A stretch of 34,298 nucleotides of DNA from an uncultured Bacteroidales bacterium (GTDB lineage Bacteria > Bacteroidota > Bacteroidia > Bacteroidales > UBA932). Position 1 is the stretch's first letter, and every line of letters begins with the position of its first letter. The notes below the pieces were generated by a model. That model was given only the letters and a program-made list of their open reading frames with translations. It was not told the origin of the DNA and ran no database searches. The DNA lies in assembly GCA_944325965.1 (NCBI GenBank), contig CALVCB010000018.1, forward strand, positions 1 to 34,298, given 5' to 3'. The position numbers were made by a program, and so were the translations under genes. Shown here one piece after another: positions 27,455-34,227 of the stretch.

Positions 27455-27533
27455 ATGATACTTTCAAAAGAAATGTCCATCCGGCCCGAAATATATGTGA
27501 TATTTCATGTTTTCGGATTTAATGTTTTTTGCG

Positions 27534-27541
27534 TATCTTTG
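27534..27541 (+). promoter_or_regulatory. -7 element of the one-TM hypothetical gene
   Basis: TATCTTTG, 20 nt before the ATG at 27562; TTTC at 27511-27514 lies 19 bp upstream in the -33 position. Confidence 0.5.
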
Positions 27542-27561
27542 AGAATTGATGACCATAAGCT

Positions 27562-27960
27562 ATGAAAACATATACACCCATAGATGACCCGGATCCGTTA
27601 GACGGCATCTGGAAAAGAATTGTCGTATGGCTTGTCATATGGATTATTCTTCCTGCCATCTTTTTCTCTTACAGGTATTACAATAATCTCCAGAAACATG
27701 TCAGGGAATATGTCCCTGAGGAGAAATATCATGTAATCAGGGATCCGGAGAGAAGCAATGCCGAAATCCGGGATATAGTGATGAGGGGAGATACTTTGGA
27801 GTATATCTATGAGGGAGACCCAAGAATCATTCATAAGCAAAGGGTCAAGGAACCTGATATCGACTCTGATTACGATGTGGATCTCAGTGACCCTGTTGTA
27901 GTGGAGAGAATATTCGAAACTTCTGATTTCTGGGAACTGTATGAAAGATATGCCGACTGA
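27562..27960 (+). CDS. Hypothetical protein with one membrane helix
   Basis: A 132-residue protein: a short N-terminal cytosolic part, a hydrophobic helix at about 22-40 (VVWLVIWIILPAIFF), then a charged, acidic soluble domain with many Asp, Glu, Arg and Tyr. No known domain is recognised. A Bacteroidota promoter sits correctly upstream. The stop codon overlaps the degenerate first CRISPR repeat, so any read-through transcript would run into the array. Function unknown. Confidence 0.65.
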   Translation: MKTYTPIDDPDPLDGIWKRIVVWLVIWIILPAIFFSYRYYNNLQKHVREYVPEEKYHVIRDPERSNAEIRDIVMRGDTLEYIYEGDPRIIHKQRVKEPDIDSDYDVDLSDPVVVERIFETSDFWELYERYAD

Positions 27961-28135
27961 GCCGCGTATGATTCAAACTTTATAACTTTGACAGACTGAA
28001 AACAGTAAAACGGATAGGAACAGTAGCCTTGCCAAGGTTGTGAATTGCTTTCAAACTTTATAACTTTGACAGACTGAAAACAGTAGAGTCTGTGTAATTA
28101 TATGATTCACAAAATGTTAAAGATTGTTTTCAGAA
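27959..28135 (+). CRISPR. Minimal type II-C array: one full 47-bp repeat, two half-degenerate repeats, two spacers
   Basis: The full repeat is 28037-28083, beginning GTTGTGAATTGCTTTCAAAC. Repeat 1 (27959-28005) is identical over its last 34 bases but degenerate over the first 13. Repeat 3 (28116-28135) keeps only a 5' half, matching at about 14 of 20 positions, before the terminator. Spacer 1 is 28006-28036 (31 nt), spacer 2 is 28084-28115 (32 nt). The 47-bp length and general sequence resemble the type II-C repeats I remember from Bacteroides. Orientation is plus: the repeat 5' half pairs with the tracrRNA anti-repeat (34146-34166), so crRNAs are spacer followed by repeat 5' half. The spacer targets are unknown. 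Confidence 0.85.
28038..28068 (+). promoter_or_regulatory. Promoter embedded in the CRISPR repeat
   Basis: Within the intact repeat TTG (28038-28040) is followed after exactly 20 bp by TAACTTTG (28061-28068), a full Bacteroidota -33/-7 pair. Initiation about 6-8 nt downstream would place the RNA 5' end in the last bases of the repeat, just ahead of spacer 2. Repeat 1 carries the same -7 (27983-27990) but not the -33. Confidence 0.6.
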
Positions 28136-28167
28136 TAAAAAATCCGATAGCGATATCGGATTTTTTT
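28135..28167. terminator. Bidirectional terminator between CRISPR array and cas2
   Basis: AATCCGATA (28141-28149) and TATCGGATT (28154-28162) form a perfect 9-bp stem with a 4-nt loop, with A-run to the left and T-run to the right. It can end array transcription on the plus strand and cas9-cas1-cas2 transcription on the minus strand. Confidence 0.85.
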
Positions 28168-28193
28168 GTTGGAATGTTTTCGTTTTTCTGTTT

Positions 28194-28535
<342 letters not shown>

Positions 28536-28540
28536 TTATA

Positions 28541-29479
28541 TCAAGTCATTTCCGGATATATTATTTTACGGAGTTCCCCATTGAAACATTTTGCCAGAGA
28601 AGATGTCGTCTGGGATGCCGCCACCATCAGCGGACTGCCCCTACCGTTGATTACAACTTCTATTGTCGGTATTGACAGCAATTTGATTTTTATCTCTTTG
28701 GTAATCTCCTTACAGTCTGTGCTTCTCCATATATCGTATACAATCCTGTCGACAAACGGCCGATACGGCTCCATGATATCATCGGCAAGGCAGTATGCAT
28801 TGTATTTGTTATGGTGATGGATTCCCAGAGTGGGAAGCAGACCGCTTGCGACCAGTGCTCTTGCAATTACCGCACGAAGCACTGCGTATCCATAGTTAAG
28901 GAGGTTGTTGGGTTCATCTTCGTCCCGGCCTCTGATAAAATCGGCTTTATCAGGAAAGATTGTTTTCCAGTAGTAAGCTGCCGCGCGGGCCTCCATATTG
29001 TCCGTATCCCCGCTTTTGACACTTGCTGCCCAGATTTTCATGTTGTTGTGCTCTTCTCCTGTTACATATCTAAGGACGCTTGCCTGGTTGGAGATCTTAC
29101 TCTGTATGGTTTGCTGCCATAGTTGTTTTTTTAGAGGAAGAGAAGAGTCCAGCTGCTGCCTGAATCTTTCGTTCTGGAGCGTATTACCGTATAAAGGCAG
29201 CATCAGTCCTACGGGAAGGTGGTTTGACCCGCAGGTTATTACTGCGCAGTTGTTGTCAATCAGCTCTTCCAGAAGCCCTTGTGTGATAGTTATTTGCTTG
29301 TTGTCTAATATGACAATGCCGATATCTTCCACCGGCACTGTCTTGACGGTGGAATCATAGCACCTTGCATCATCGAAATCAGGCAGGTCTCCAGCATCGT
29401 CCGGTACTCTGATGACCAATTGCCTGAGTTTCATTGACAGGTAGGCTGGATTGCCGAAATATAGTGTGCGTTTGATCAT
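28541..29479 (-). CDS. cas1: CRISPR-associated integrase Cas1, type II
   Basis: A 312-residue Cas1. After the beta-sheet N-terminal domain (RTLYFGNPAYLSMK, VEDIGIVILDN), the helical catalytic domain carries Glu163 (NMEARAAAYYWK), the His stretch at 221-223 (GIHHHN) and the acidic patch Asp233/Asp234/Glu237 (LADDIMEPYRPFVD), the metal ligands for spacer integration. Length is normal. It follows cas9 after 66 nt and precedes cas2 by 5 nt. It appears intact, so acquisition may remain possible even where cas9 is interrupted, although type II acquisition normally also uses Cas9 for PAM selection. Confidence 0.95.
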   Translation of the reverse strand: MIKRTLYFGNPAYLSMKLRQLVIRVPDDAGDLPDFDDARCYDSTVKTVPVEDIGIVILDNKQITITQGLLEELIDNNCAVITCGSNHLPVGLMLPLYGNTLQNERFRQQLDSSLPLKKQLWQQTIQSKISNQASVLRYVTGEEHNNMKIWAASVKSGDTDNMEARAAAYYWKTIFPDKADFIRGRDEDEPNNLLNYGYAVLRAVIARALVASGLLPTLGIHHHNKYNAYCLADDIMEPYRPFVDRIVYDIWRSTDCKEITKEIKIKLLSIPTIEVVINGRGSPLMVAASQTTSSLAKCFNGELRKIIYPEMT

Positions 29480-29545: not shown

Positions 29546-32500
29546 TCAAAGAATATTTTGATTGAATTTGATTATGTTGCCAAGTCTGTCAATTTTTAAT
29601 GGTATGCAGGTTTCTTTGATCATTTCACCAGTTATTGCTCTTTCCATTTTATTCAGTGTAGAAAATTCTACCTTATCAACAATTGGGTTTGCAACTGAAT
29701 ATTTAATAAAGAAACATTGTTTACCAGAAGATGAGACCATTTTATAAATTCTGCTTCTATCCAAAGGCAATGACACAACCCCTCTTTCCAGTTCATCTTC
29801 ATTAGGAAGATATACCAGATCGTTCGGCGACAGAGAGAATAGTAATGGTTCCCCGATATTGTTAAATTCGGGAACAGTATTTATCCCTGATTTCATGTTG
29901 TCTATAACCTTATTCAGAGGAACTGTATCGTATGACCGGCCATATTCTGATTTATAGATGGCAAAAAACAGATTTGTCCCCTTTGCGGCTTCTACAAATT
30001 TCTTAGATTTGTTACCGCGCTCTCCTATCGGGAACTTTTCAGCTTTTTCATATTTCCGCACTTTGAAAATAGGTTTATGCTGTTTCCCTCCATTAAGTGC
30101 AGTAATGTTGGAATTCATTTTGTCCATTCCGTCAGGAGAAAATGCAATGGCCGGGTCTTTCCCGAATGTGAGCAAATGGTTTTTGAGTATTTTCTGGATA
30201 CCGGTATCGGTAATATTTTCTATGGCTGAATCAATCTTATCCTTGGAAATTTTAGATAAAAATCCGGATAAATCATTACGTGACGCAAAAAATCGCTCAT
30301 TAGTTTCATTGGAAAATACATATGTCTCAATTTTGGAAATGTCTTTCCCATTGAATTTCATTTCTCGTTGTTTGAAAAACGATTTGATTGATTTATAGTC
30401 CATTCCTTTGGACAAAAGGTCCAGTATTTTCGATTTTAACTGTTTGTCGACAATTCTATCAGGTTTCCTTAATGCTTCTGAAAATGAGACAGATTTAGGA
30501 TACCTTAAGTTCACTTCTCCAAATACCGTGTCTTTATGGAGCGGTTTTCGAATTGCCCAGTTTTCGCCGTGGCTTTGCTTTACGTATTCTTTTTTACCAT
30601 TGTTATATTTGACATAACGATTTGATGCCTTGTTGATGACACGGAGATTTTTCTTGAAACTGATGATGATTTCAGATAAAGTATTCCTGGTGTCGACTAT
30701 AAAATTATCCCAAGGTATGTTTACAGAATACTTGCCGTTTTCACCATGCACTTGATGGCAGACCAGATCCCGGAGGTCATACCTGCTAATACTGGATCCG
30801 TTGCCTGCCGATGCATTATTCAGATAGTTGACTATGTTCCGGTTTGCACAGGCAATGACAATGGCATCCATTGCATGATGTCTGTGATCAATCCTTTTTT
30901 TGCTGAATCCTTTTTGGAATTCGAGCGGCATATCAGGAATCAATTTCCCATTTGTATTATACCTGGTGAATCTTTTATCTAAAACTGATTCCATCCGCTC
31001 AAAACGTGGCAGTACAATCTCATTCCAGATGTTATTGACACCCCAGTCTTTTTTCAGCCTGTCTGTAATGGCCCCAGTACAGGTAATGACATTTTTTGAC
31101 ATAGCTTCTTCCTCTCCGTCTTCTCTGACAATATTTGAGAGGAGCGATTTGACAAGTTTGCTTATGTATCTACTGTCGTTCAACTGTCTTTGGATGAAAT
31201 CATCCGGTATCTCGTCCATCAGAAGCTTCCGTTTCTTTACTTGATTGTGGCTATAGTTGTCATTGACAAGTTTTTCATATGCGTCAACAGTTAGTATTTG
31301 TACAGTCCTCCCATAATTCAATGTTACGATTTCGCCTCCATGTGCCTGGATGAATTCATGGCCGAGAAGTCTGTCTTTAAGTTTATTGACCTCAGATTCG
31401 CAGATTACTTTATTGCTAAATGAGTCATCAAAATATCTGACTTTAGGTATTATGTGTTCTATTTCATAGGCAGGGGTGAACAGTTTGCCTAGGGGAATCG
31501 GATTTCCTGTATAAGGAGATATGTATTTCTGGTCAAGCCATAGTTTGTATTTTAATATTTCAGAAGTTGTCGGTCTCTTCTTTATATCTGATTCGTTGAA
31601 TTTTTTCAGAATGCCTTCTATTTCTATATCAAGCTGTACAGCGTTCTCGAGCACATTTTCCTCATAAATCTTGAGGATTTCCTGCTGGTATGGAGAATAT
31701 GGCCGGACATCTTCAATTCCAAATTCCGGATTAAGGAATTCACTTAGCAATGCCTTGATTCTGAGGTTTGTATTCTCATTTTTATTAATCTGCTCCGATA
31801 TTTTTCTTCGTTTATCGGCAGGATTTTTCATCTCCCGTCCGAGCTCAATATGAATTTCGTCTATGTGTCCCACTTGTTTCCATATATCCCGGACGGTGCG
31901 AAGTGTTTCAAGTACTACTTGTTCTACTATAGGATTATGTAGGGAGTGCTGCCTGAATGATTTAAGGTAGAAATCGATATCTTCAGGTGTTCTCCACTGG
32001 GCTGCATCTGAACTTTCAGAATGTCTGTTATAAACAATATAGCAGGCCAGCCATAATGGCAGTCCTTGGAATGCAGAAATATCAGTCAGTGAAATAGCTT
32101 TTTCTCTGACCATATCCTTTATTTTTGGGTCGTATTCCCCGGATAGTATTTTTATGATTCTGTCCTTTGTTGCTATATCAATTGATGCTTCGCTCCAGAA
32201 TTTACCAGCCCGCATCAGAGGCAGAAGTTTTTTTATTGCTTTAGCTGAATATGCCCCGTAGTTTCTTTCGAACGGTGGAAATTTACTGAAAATATCAACA
32301 AAAGATCCAATATCATCAATATTGTGATTTACAGCAAATCTGGTGAGTGCTTTTTTCAGTTCATCCTTAGTCGTAATTGAATACAATATGTGCCATAGCT
32401 GTATCTCTGTGTCTCCCGATAAGAAATCTGCACTTAACCCAGCTTTTTCAAGATATTTGACAATATCAGACCTGGTTTCATTCCCTGGATATGTTTTCTC

Positions 32501-33176
32501 TGTGGGGTAGTTCCATCTGTATTGTTCGACTTCTTTTTTATTGATTTTAAAAAGCGGGCACGCCAGCATGGTTTTCATGCTGATTTTGTCCTTGCTGGCA
32601 AGCCATTCATATAGAGATGCATAACTGTTATGGTCTGGAAGCAGTTCTTTGGTGATGTTGACATCATTGATGAACTTTCCGTTAATGTCCTTTCCGTCCC
32701 TATATATCCTTAGATTTGAAATGAACTGCCATAACCTGAATTCCTGGAATAAAGGATGTGACTTTGCTATGCATTTTATGTGTGAAATAATTTTTTCGTT
32801 TGTCTGTTGATCGAGATATACCCGATGTTCATAAGGACATTCATCAATAGTAGTTTTTTTACTTTTGAGAGGCCTTTGATAGAAAATTATATCGTCAAGG
32901 AACAGATATGAAAAATCTTTATTTTGAATATTTGCCTTGTGGGAATCATTATGCCTGTATAGCAGATTCAAGCATCTTTCATATAGTGCATGGTCATTAA
33001 GGTCTGCATTATATTCCCGCTGTTTTGCCAGTATTGACTGAAGTTCTTTTTTATAGTATTTACGTTCAATTGTCCTGACTAATTTGCCTTTTATTTTTTG
33101 GGAAGGGTTTGCGAGAAGAGAATCATAGATAAATTCACCTACAGTCTTGCGTGAATTTTCTATATCTGCTTCTGTC
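29546..33176 (-). CDS. cas9: Cas9 (type II-C), C-terminal frame downstream of a frameshift
   Basis: This frame encodes residues ~296-1504 of the reconstructed Cas9. It has no ATG near its beginning: the first possible start is a TTG at 32971, and an in-frame TAA precedes the A-tract. It contains the rest of the REC lobe, RuvC-II (IDEIHIELGRE, Glu739 in full-length numbering), the HNH domain (KYISPYTGNPI, YEIEHIIPK with His869, SEVNKLKDR), RuvC-III (RIDHRHHAMDAIV, His1062 and Asp1065), then the PAM-interacting C-terminal region ending LGNIIKFNQNIL. All nuclease residues checked are intact. No other frameshift or stop is found, which argues for recent or reversible loss. The restored protein would be 1504 residues, normal for large Bacteroidota II-C Cas9. 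Confidence 0.9.
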
Positions 33177-34061
33177 TTTTTTTTTGATTAAAGTCCAGTC
33201 GTTTTCGTTAGGTGCACGGAAAGATCGTTTTACATTGCCCTCCTTGTCCACGACCGGGTTGCCGTATTTGTCTATATCTGTTGTGATGATGAGGTCTTTT
33301 GTTTTTCCGATCCAGTCTGGTTTGTTATTGAATGATCTTCTGAAAGACCAACCATTTTCAAGGATAACGGTATACCATGTACCTTTGCTGCTTTTTTCCT
33401 CTGAGTCTGCTATAATATCTGTAACGGTTAAAGAGAAATATTCAGTTCTTTTCCCCGATTCCTCTTCTTCCTCGTTGTCTCTTAGCTGGTAGTATCCTCT
33501 TTTCTGATTGAAATTAAGGAGGATCCATGCCAATTCGAATTTACTGACCGGTTTTTCGAGTGCTTTTTTCCTCAAATAGTATATTGTCCAGTCATATGGG
33601 ATTTTCAGTCCATGTTCCGATAACTCAGGATATCGGGCGCTGAAATCGTCCAGCATTTCATTGAAAGACTCGATAAATAAAAACCTATACCGGTTATCAG
33701 TATCTTTTACCCAAGCGATTTTCGGCTCCTGGTTATTTATGAAATTACCGTATCTGTCAATATGCTGAGCATAATGAGAAGGCAACCAATCCATTTCCAT
33801 GAGAACCCTATGCAATCTTGCTCGTCTCAGATGACTTCTTTCTATAAGCCTGCGGATACTGCGAAGTCTTGTTCTTTCGGCTGTTTGAGATATTGAGTTT
33901 CCTTTATCGAAATCCCCCAGAGTTTTAGCATCCATGGGAATGATACGGCTACCGGCACAGTCTATTCCTTTCAAGAATTTCTTGCCATCAATATTATCCT
34001 CATTGACAACTGCCCATCCTATTGAATTTGTCCCGAGATCAAGTCCTAGAATGTTTCTCAT
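33135..34061 (-). CDS. cas9: Cas9 (type II-C), N-terminal frame ending at a frameshift
   Basis: A 308-residue truncated product carrying RuvC-I (ILGLDLGTNSIGWAVV, catalytic Asp8), the arginine-rich bridge helix (RTRLRSIRRLIERSHLRRAR at about 63-82) and the start of the REC lobe (FNQKRGYYQLRD near 180). After DWTLIKKK the frame departs and ends DRSRYRKFTQDCR. Reading one A fewer instead gives KKKTEADIENSRKTVGEFI, which continues smoothly into the downstream frame. By itself this fragment lacks HNH and the rest of RuvC and cannot cleave DNA, though it could in principle bind RNA. ATG 34061 is preceded by a TAAATTTG promoter element. Confidence 0.9.
   Translation of the reverse strand: MRNILGLDLGTNSIGWAVVNEDNIDGKKFLKGIDCAGSRIIPMDAKTLGDFDKGNSISQTAERTRLRSIRRLIERSHLRRARLHRVLMEMDWLPSHYAQHIDRYGNFINNQEPKIAWVKDTDNRYRFLFIESFNEMLDDFSARYPELSEHGLKIPYDWTIYYLRKKALEKPVSKFELAWILLNFNQKRGYYQLRDNEEEEESGKRTEYFSLTVTDIIADSEEKSSKGTWYTVILENGWSFRRSFNNKPDWIGKTKDLIITTDIDKYGNPVVDKEGNVKRSFRAPNENDWTLIKKKDRSRYRKFTQDCR
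33177..33185 (-). other. A9 homopolymer tract that interrupts cas9
   Basis: Nine As on the coding strand (ATC, A9, GAC). Eight would keep the cas9 frame open. Such a tract is prone to replication slippage (phase variation), transcriptional slippage, or sequencing error. The tract overlaps three Lys codons, so loss of one A costs no conserved residue. Confidence 0.85.
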
Positions 34062-34111: not shown

Positions 34112-34142
34112 TTTGATATTTAATTAAAAAAGAATATATTCG
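34112..34142 (+). promoter_or_regulatory. tracrRNA promoter
   Basis: TTTG (34112-34115), a 19-bp spacer, and TATATTCG (34135-34142), one mismatch from TAnnTTTG. Initiation around 34145-34150 would begin the RNA at the anti-repeat. Confidence 0.6.
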
Positions 34143-34144
34143 CG

Positions 34145-34227
34145 GAAAGTTTGAAGCAATTCACAATAAGGATTATTCCGTTGTGAAAACATTTAAGGCG
34201 GCGGGTTTTCCCGTCGCCTTCTGTTTG
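34145..34227 (+). ncRNA. tracrRNA of the type II-C system
   Basis: The anti-repeat AAAGTTTGAAGCAATTCACA (34146-34165, plus the following A) is complementary to repeat positions 2-23 (TTGTGAATTGC, one bulged T, TTCAAACTTT). It is followed by a short GGA/TCC hairpin (34170-34179), an A/U-rich nexus-like section, and the terminal hairpin at 34195-34220. The RNA is about 83 nt, divergent from cas9 and upstream of it, a common II-C position. It should pair with crRNA repeats and load Cas9. The 5' and 3' ends are inferred from promoter and terminator. Confidence 0.85.
34195..34220 (+). terminator. tracrRNA terminal hairpin
   Basis: AAGGCGGCGGG and CCCGTCGCCTT form an 11-bp stem with one G-U pair and a TTTT loop. 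The tail CTGTTTGT is only moderately T-rich. In type II systems this hairpin also contacts Cas9. Confidence 0.75.

Follow-up and report, generated by a model that had tools for sequence, protein, structure and literature searches.

The type II-C CRISPR locus at the end of the 34,298-nt stretch analyzed here (the window; contig CALVCB010000018.1 of an uncultured Bacteroidales bacterium) raises the question of whether its repeat contains a promoter written in the code of its own host. Repeat-embedded promoters were reportedly described in 2013, by Zhang and by Dugar, for the type II-C arrays of Neisseria and Campylobacter. In these arrays, a sigma70-like -10 element occupies the very end of a 36-nt repeat and transcription starts inside the spacer. 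Promoters within II-C repeats are treated as established in parts of the literature (PMC12080349, PMC13187072). The Bacteroides sigma-ABfr promoter consists of TAnnTTTG at -7 and TTTG near -33 (PMC7366714, PMC12632263), and the reviewed consensus is TANNTTTGY (PMC12632263).

A type II-C locus with a single spacer

At the end of the window, cas9, cas1 and cas2 lie in a row on the minus strand: cas2 at 28,194 to 28,535 (TIGR01573), type II cas1 at 28,541 to 29,479 (TIGR03639) and cas9, in two frames, at 29,546 to 34,061. These are the only cas genes and an anti-repeat lies beside cas9, which identifies the locus as type II-C. The cas9 frame is broken in the assembly near a run of nine T at 33,177 to 33,185, which could reflect a misassembly, gene decay or a slippery site. 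The system may be nonfunctional in this strain, or the sequence may have been assembled incorrectly at this point. In four relatives, the locus has a longest stop-free stretch, presumably cas9, of 1,402 to 1,513 codons. The nearest record by Cas1, at 88% identity, comes from Candidatus Cryptobacteroides faecipullorum.

Beyond cas2, on the plus strand, the array comprises a truncated repeat, one spacer and one full repeat. In the truncated, terminal (oldest) copy at 27,972 to 28,005, most of the first 13 positions are changed, with TTG now AGC, and TAACTTTG is kept at 27,983 to 27,990. The spacer (28,006 to 28,036) measures 31 nt when the repeat is taken as 47 nt, and 28 nt of it had no exact match in viral contigs. 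The only full-length repeat (28,037 to 28,083) is leader proximal, groups in one family with the 48-nt repeats of L122 and L198, and has no other copy in the genome assembly (2.06 Mb, 78% complete). Between the array and cas2 lies the leader (28,084 to 28,193), in which folding predicts a terminator-like 13-bp hairpin with a T-rich 3' side at 28,137 to 28,166, one that a simple terminator scan did not flag. With the truncated repeat upstream and the leader beside cas2, the array appears to have the II-C layout, in which reading proceeds from the oldest repeat toward the acquisition end.

On the far side of the array, a small plus-strand open reading frame (ORF) without an NCBIfam match (27,562 to 27,960) ends at the array and is preceded by a candidate -7 element, TATCTTTG, at 27,534 to 27,541; read-through into the array is possible. 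Beside cas9, a candidate tracrRNA promoter on the plus strand (34,113 to 34,142) combines TTG at 34,113 to 34,115, a 19-nt gap and TATATTCG at 34,135 to 34,142. It precedes the anti-repeat (34,148 to 34,167, plus strand), which aligns without gaps to the repeat complement at 15 of its 20 letters. An anti-repeat read on the plus strand behind TTG-N19-TATATTCG fits a crRNA sense that is also plus, toward cas2.

The repeat conforms to the host genome's promoter code

Within the full repeat, TTG at repeat positions 2 to 4 (28,038 to 28,040) is a candidate -33 element and TAACTTTG at positions 25 to 32 (28,061 to 28,068) a candidate -7 element, both on the plus strand. The letters, coordinates and 20-bp spacing reported in a preliminary description of the window are all correct. 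With the -7 element centered at -7 (PMC7366714), transcription would start at repeat positions 36 to 41 (28,072 to 28,077, plus strand). TTG-N20-TAnnTTTG occurs four times on the two strands of the window, compared with 0.20 expected from shuffles, and shuffling the full repeat from position 17 onward places TAnnTTTG at a gap of 19 to 21 with P = 0.005. TTG alone is weak evidence because it is part of the GTTGTG start common to nearly all examined repeats. A sigma70-type scan of 27,500 to 28,250 returned one match, compared with 2.1 in shuffles.

To define the host's own code, we used an 834-kb sample of the genome (41 stretches, including the window) with 327 upstream regions. These regions contain TAnnTTTG 155 times, compared with 33.8 after shuffling; its reverse complement is enriched too (96 versus 34.0), which we read as the mark of divergent genes. 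Ahead of 142 TAnnTTTG sites, TTG stands 14 times at a gap of 19 and 15 times at a gap of 20, whereas all other gaps between 12 and 31 have 0 to 5 occurrences each. On both strands of the 834 kb, TTG-N19/20-TAnnTTTG is found 98 times (shuffled mean, 11.5). Judged by the enrichment and the gap peak, the window's repeat therefore fits the code that its own host uses for promoters.

The match has its limits. The full repeat agrees with the sigma-ABfr promoter in having TAnnTTTG with TTG or TTTG 19 to 20 nt upstream, and differs from it in lying inside a CRISPR repeat and in the letter after the -7 element, which is A (28,069) rather than C or T. At genome sites, C or T follows TTTG in 83% and A in 10%. 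The repeat's -7 core ranks at the 18th percentile among the genome's 153 upstream TAnnTTTG sites, probably because of this A and of a C at two AT-rich positions before it.

In a comparison with other genomes, this code is strongest in Bacteroidales. Counts of TTG-N19 versus TTG-N26 before TAnnTTTG are 79:31, 98:34, 164:53, 150:70, 204:50 and 164:66 in six Bacteroidales genomes, a 2.1- to 4.1-fold difference, compared with 0.6- to 1.7-fold in ten others. Pooled loci of f1 (the window's family) and f2 (a family of the window's order), which share homologous genes, give a different picture: ahead of their 106 sites, TTG occurs 9 times at a gap of 19 and 12 times at 20, but also 10 times at 14 and 11 times at 24. 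This profile is not clean and counts against the promoter reading.

The motif is conserved across Bacteroidales II-C repeats

Of 395 genomes of the phylum, 59 have a type II cas1 gene above the cutoff, as do 38 of 199 sampled genomes in the family; both counts include the genome of the window. We took 96 of the 97 cas1 places above the cutoff outside the window, leaving out a partial one in G560. Counting the window, a usable array was recovered from 82 of 97 loci. Another 13 yielded none, and the remaining two, L125 and L127, were removed by a filter on the start of the repeat (L127 has TATCTTCG). To these we added named loci, the best 80 of 156 relatives, of which 57 gave an array; several duplicate the first set, and their Bacteroidales status was assigned by hand according to record titles. 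The consensus of L215 is a 34-nt core.

The preliminary description had suggested that TTG-N19/20-TAnnTTTG would prove conserved, and across Bacteroidales it mostly is. Exact TAnnTTTG is found in 44 of 52 distinct forward II-C repeats, some of which are close relatives, and is absent from eight. It begins 17 to 21 nt after TTG or CTG (18 to 21 nt in 43 of the 44), with a gap of 19 or 20 in 37; repeat positions 2 to 4 read TTG in 43 and CTG in one. Named carriers include Xylanibacter muris, Prevotella aurantiaca, P. amnii and Phocaeicola oris, and the repeats of Porphyromonas pasteri and P. catoniae hold near matches only. A 47-bp Bacteroides repeat, cited in the preliminary description as having the motif at 19 bp, has a counterpart in L062 of the same order, which reads GTTGTGATTTGCTTTCAAATTAGTATCTTTGAACC... 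and has TATCTTTG at a gap of 19.

In f1 and f2, 17 of 20 forward repeats have TAnnTTTG at a gap of 19 to 21, compared with 0.085 expected when the 3' part is shuffled. For pairs of repeats that agree in no more than 50% of the downstream part, identity is 93% at the six fixed -7 letters, 59% at the two free letters and 33% in the downstream part; the comparison was anchored on the best motif match, which favors the motif. The two free letters are never G in the 44 repeats, and G makes up 1 to 2% in genomic sites. Against the promoter consensus, A follows TTTG in 24 of the 44.

Reversed arrays of the same family carry the motif in the leader

In eight f1 arrays, the repeats are 36 nt long and the array is co-directional with the cas genes. 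Support for this orientation comes from the seven loci tested, each of which has a sequence complementary to the repeat's first half about 5.0 to 5.7 kb upstream of the array; in L143 it lies just upstream of cas9. None of their seven distinct repeats contains TAnnTTTG. The motif stands instead 109 to 116 nt upstream of the first repeat in all eight arrays, which are related and do not represent eight independent events, and this is where a leader promoter would belong. Forward f1 and f2 arrays with a full 160-nt flank, in contrast, have TAnnTTTG upstream in 1 of 15 cases, with about 1.3 expected from the shuffle rate, and an inward-pointing TAnnTTTG is found in 2 of 51 Bacteroidales leaders. 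The forward arrays thus have no conserved external promoter of the TAnnTTTG type, the only type looked for, in their upstream flanks or leaders. None of the 20 forward f1 and f2 arrays has a 36-nt repeat, compared with 28 of 54 forward arrays of other families.

In the reversed arrays L143, L144, L150 to L153, L155 and L156, the putative leader promoter is immediately followed by a segment that looks like the complement of the repeat's first half (CTACATCA in L151), an arrangement reminiscent of the leader-repeat hairpins reported for II-A and Cas13 systems (PMC13187072). In the window, positions 28,123 to 28,133 of the leader are complementary to the 3' end of the repeat at 28,074 to 28,084, and folding joins the two in one hairpin with the last repeat. 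This leader complement changes with the repeat between species (mean score, 7.68 with a leader's own repeat versus 5.66 with the repeats of others). It has a rank p of ≤0.1 in 29 of 51 Bacteroidales leaders and 33 of 66 in other groups, counts that are uncorrected for relatedness. Both Cas1-Cas2 recognition and an RNA hairpin are possible roles.

Most eroded terminal repeats keep the -7 letters, and the window's array appears nearly worn out

The preliminary description held that every repeat carries a complete host-type promoter. The motif, its conservation in Bacteroidales and its direction toward the leader support the presence of a putative host-type promoter in the repeat, but not a complete one in every copy. 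The copy that precedes the only spacer has AGC in place of TTG and no other TTG at gaps of 17 to 22. The complete copy at 28,037 to 28,083, which had been put forward as driving a crRNA, is the last, leader-side repeat, beyond which there is no spacer; a crRNA cannot arise from its promoter because only the leader and the 13-bp terminator-like hairpin lie downstream. The design thus appears nearly worn out in the window, with the complete copy pointing into leader and terminator, and the window's spacer would depend for its expression on a -7 element lacking TTG or on transcription continuing from the ORF that ends at the array. Nor would the crRNA be born with a trimmed 5' end, as had been supposed: with starts 4 to 9 nt after TTTG, about 7 to 12 nt of repeat and the whole spacer would be kept, so that trimming would still be needed.

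Excluding copies at contig ends and duplicates, 12 of 34 terminal copies judged in Bacteroidales are eroded from the 5' end. All 12 have lost TTG, nearly by definition of 5' erosion; the fixed -7 letters are kept in 10 (not in L206 and L228), and a replacement TTG at gaps of 17 to 22 is present in two. In other groups, 19 of 52 terminal repeats are eroded, and the -7 letters are kept in five of the seven that have them in the consensus. For the oldest repeat, mutations within its first 15 nt have already been described and explained (PMC12080349). As proof of selection on the promoter, terminal repeats were rejected, the rates of change being equal inside and outside the -7 letters (7 of 199 versus 26 of 746 letters in Bacteroidales).

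Repeats outside Bacteroidales

Outside Bacteroidales, promoter codes were judged from small upstream samples and whole-genome spacing counts. In five other families of the class, exact TAnnTTTG is present in 2 of 20 distinct repeats and the looser TAnnTT[TAC][GA] in 15 of 20 (3.1 expected). Other classes have the exact motif in 7 of 27 repeats (1.0 expected), with a gap of 19 to 21 only in L069 and L116. All three repeats of family f29 contain it at a gap of 16, and genome G043 of that family lacks the host code (9:14); the agreement between repeat and host is therefore imperfect. In f18, f36 and f47, the repeats mostly keep CTTTG at a similar place. TAnnTTTG occurs upstream of genes there 8 times versus 7.5 expected in a small sample, and nTTCTTTG 4 times versus 1.2 expected, too few to judge. 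Many long repeats of the phylum's other classes (L064, L080, L086, L225 and others; L225 is Ignavibacteriota by title) have TTCTTTG at positions ~23 to 29 and no TA.

A further group of forward 36-nt repeats ends in GATATT, TAGATT or TACATT and has TTG at positions 9 to 11, exactly 19 nt before the hexamer, in 19 of 19 arrays (including L079, L085, L097, L101 and L108), several of which share one repeat. These repeats possibly have a Neisseria-like layout with starts in the spacer, which we offer as a suggestion. The first letters of their 569 spacers in the 19 arrays have no TG bias that would complete a -7 element.

Alternative explanations

It may be that only the -7 element matters, with TTG at positions 2 to 4 being the fixed II-C start used for tracrRNA pairing and integration and the spacing a by-product of repeat length. 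The host genome itself has TTG at a gap of 19 or 20 in just 30 of 153 upstream TAnnTTTG sites (123 lack it), and the eroded Bacteroidales terminal repeats all lost TTG while 10 of 12 kept the -7 letters. The gaps of 19 and 20 in 37 of 44 repeats, however, are the same two that peak in the genome, and we regard this explanation as possible but somewhat doubtful. A second possibility is that transcription enters the array from an external promoter or continues into it from the gene upstream, TAnnTTTG in the repeat being inactive. This would suit the window in particular. There, the ORF ending at 27,960 abuts the array and has TATCTTTG at 27,534, a simple scan found no plus-strand terminator from 27,500 to the array, and read-through would suffice for one spacer. 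We consider this explanation improbable. The upstream flanks are unconserved: of 29 Bacteroidales arrays judged, the nearest gene is on the opposite strand in 8 and more than 300 nt away in 10, and TAnnTTTG within 160 nt is at chance level (1 of 15 flanks).

The CTTTG core could also be kept for Cas1-Cas2 recognition or repeat RNA structure, its likeness to a promoter being partly coincidence. In keeping with this, most long f18, f36 and f47 repeats have TTCTTTG but no TA, and their genomes show no enrichment of TAnnTTTG; f29 repeats have TAnnTTTG without the host code. Yet the motif is missing from the repeats of the reversed f1 arrays, G is avoided at the free letters just as in genomic promoters, and exact matches are commonest in Bacteroidales, the order with the strongest code; we give this account little credence.

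A probable housekeeping promoter in the repeat

We consider it likely that the 46- to 48-nt II-C repeats of Bacteroidales contain a housekeeping-sigma promoter and that transcription initiates in each repeat in the crRNA sense. Motif, spacing, orientation, conservation, the match to the host code and a contrast group with a leader promoter all support this at the sequence level, and from them we infer initiation, start site and crRNA form. The promoter would comprise TAnnTTTG at -7 and, usually, TTG at -33, 19 to 20 nt upstream, supplied by the GTTGTG start of the repeat, which would also pair with tracrRNA. RNA polymerase would start in the last part of each repeat, transcribe one spacer and continue into the repeat that follows; the first half of that repeat would then, as in known II-C systems, pair with tracrRNA for cleavage by RNase III. 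With transcription running toward the leader and cas2, a leader promoter would not be needed. The f29 repeats and the pooled gap profile leave our estimate unchanged because it rests mainly on the -7 data.

That the arrangement is the Neisseria II-C design rebuilt in Bacteroidota code, as the preliminary description proposed, fits at the level of sequence. Like the arrays of Neisseria and Campylobacter, those of Bacteroidales would have a promoter per repeat, transcription toward the acquisition end and the oldest repeat upstream. Unlike there, the Bacteroidales -33/-7 pair ends mostly 14 to 16 nt before the end of a 46- to 48-nt repeat, so that starts would fall inside the repeat. The link to Neisseria had earlier been proposed for Flavobacterium, of the same phylum as the window's bacterium (PMC8092290, PMC10309648). 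For the II-C arrays of F. columnare and F. psychrophilum, TTG in each repeat was proposed as a promoter element, and eight reads from F. columnare are within-array transcripts toward the leader; in the sections cited, TTG is named for the repeats and TAnnTTTG only for the F. psychrophilum cas9 promoter (PMC8092290, PMC10309648). The repeat of the eight 36-nt arrays of family f7 contains no TAnnTTTG. CRISPR1 of Riemerella anatipestifer resembles the arrays described here in having 47-bp II-C repeats in Bacteroidota and acquisition beside cas2 (PMC5006608, PMC6008519); its repeats were reported to contain no potential promoter, and promoters predicted in the leader were favored (PMC5006608). In the open-license literature searched, we did not find TAnnTTTG named inside a II-C repeat. 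What is already known is thus that II-C repeats carry promoters in principle, and the TTG half in Flavobacterium; the -7 element, the clade-wide test and the contrast group are added here.

More tentatively, the host promoter may have set the 46- to 48-nt length itself, the repeat having grown beyond 36 nt to accommodate TTG-N19/20-TAnnTTTG and a start and co-evolving with the host sigma code, while its reversed kin have 36-nt repeats and would use a TAnnTTTG promoter in the leader. The absence of 36-nt repeats from forward f1 and f2 arrays would fit a promoter-tied length and also common descent. If length is set in this way, the sigma-factor code would limit the hosts that a II-C array can enter.

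The reading of the repeat as a promoter bears on the Riemerella report of no promoter in such repeats. If each repeat is a promoter of the sigma-ABfr type, crRNA levels would track housekeeping transcription, the direction of an array could be read from its repeat, and transfer of an array between phyla would require a changed promoter code.
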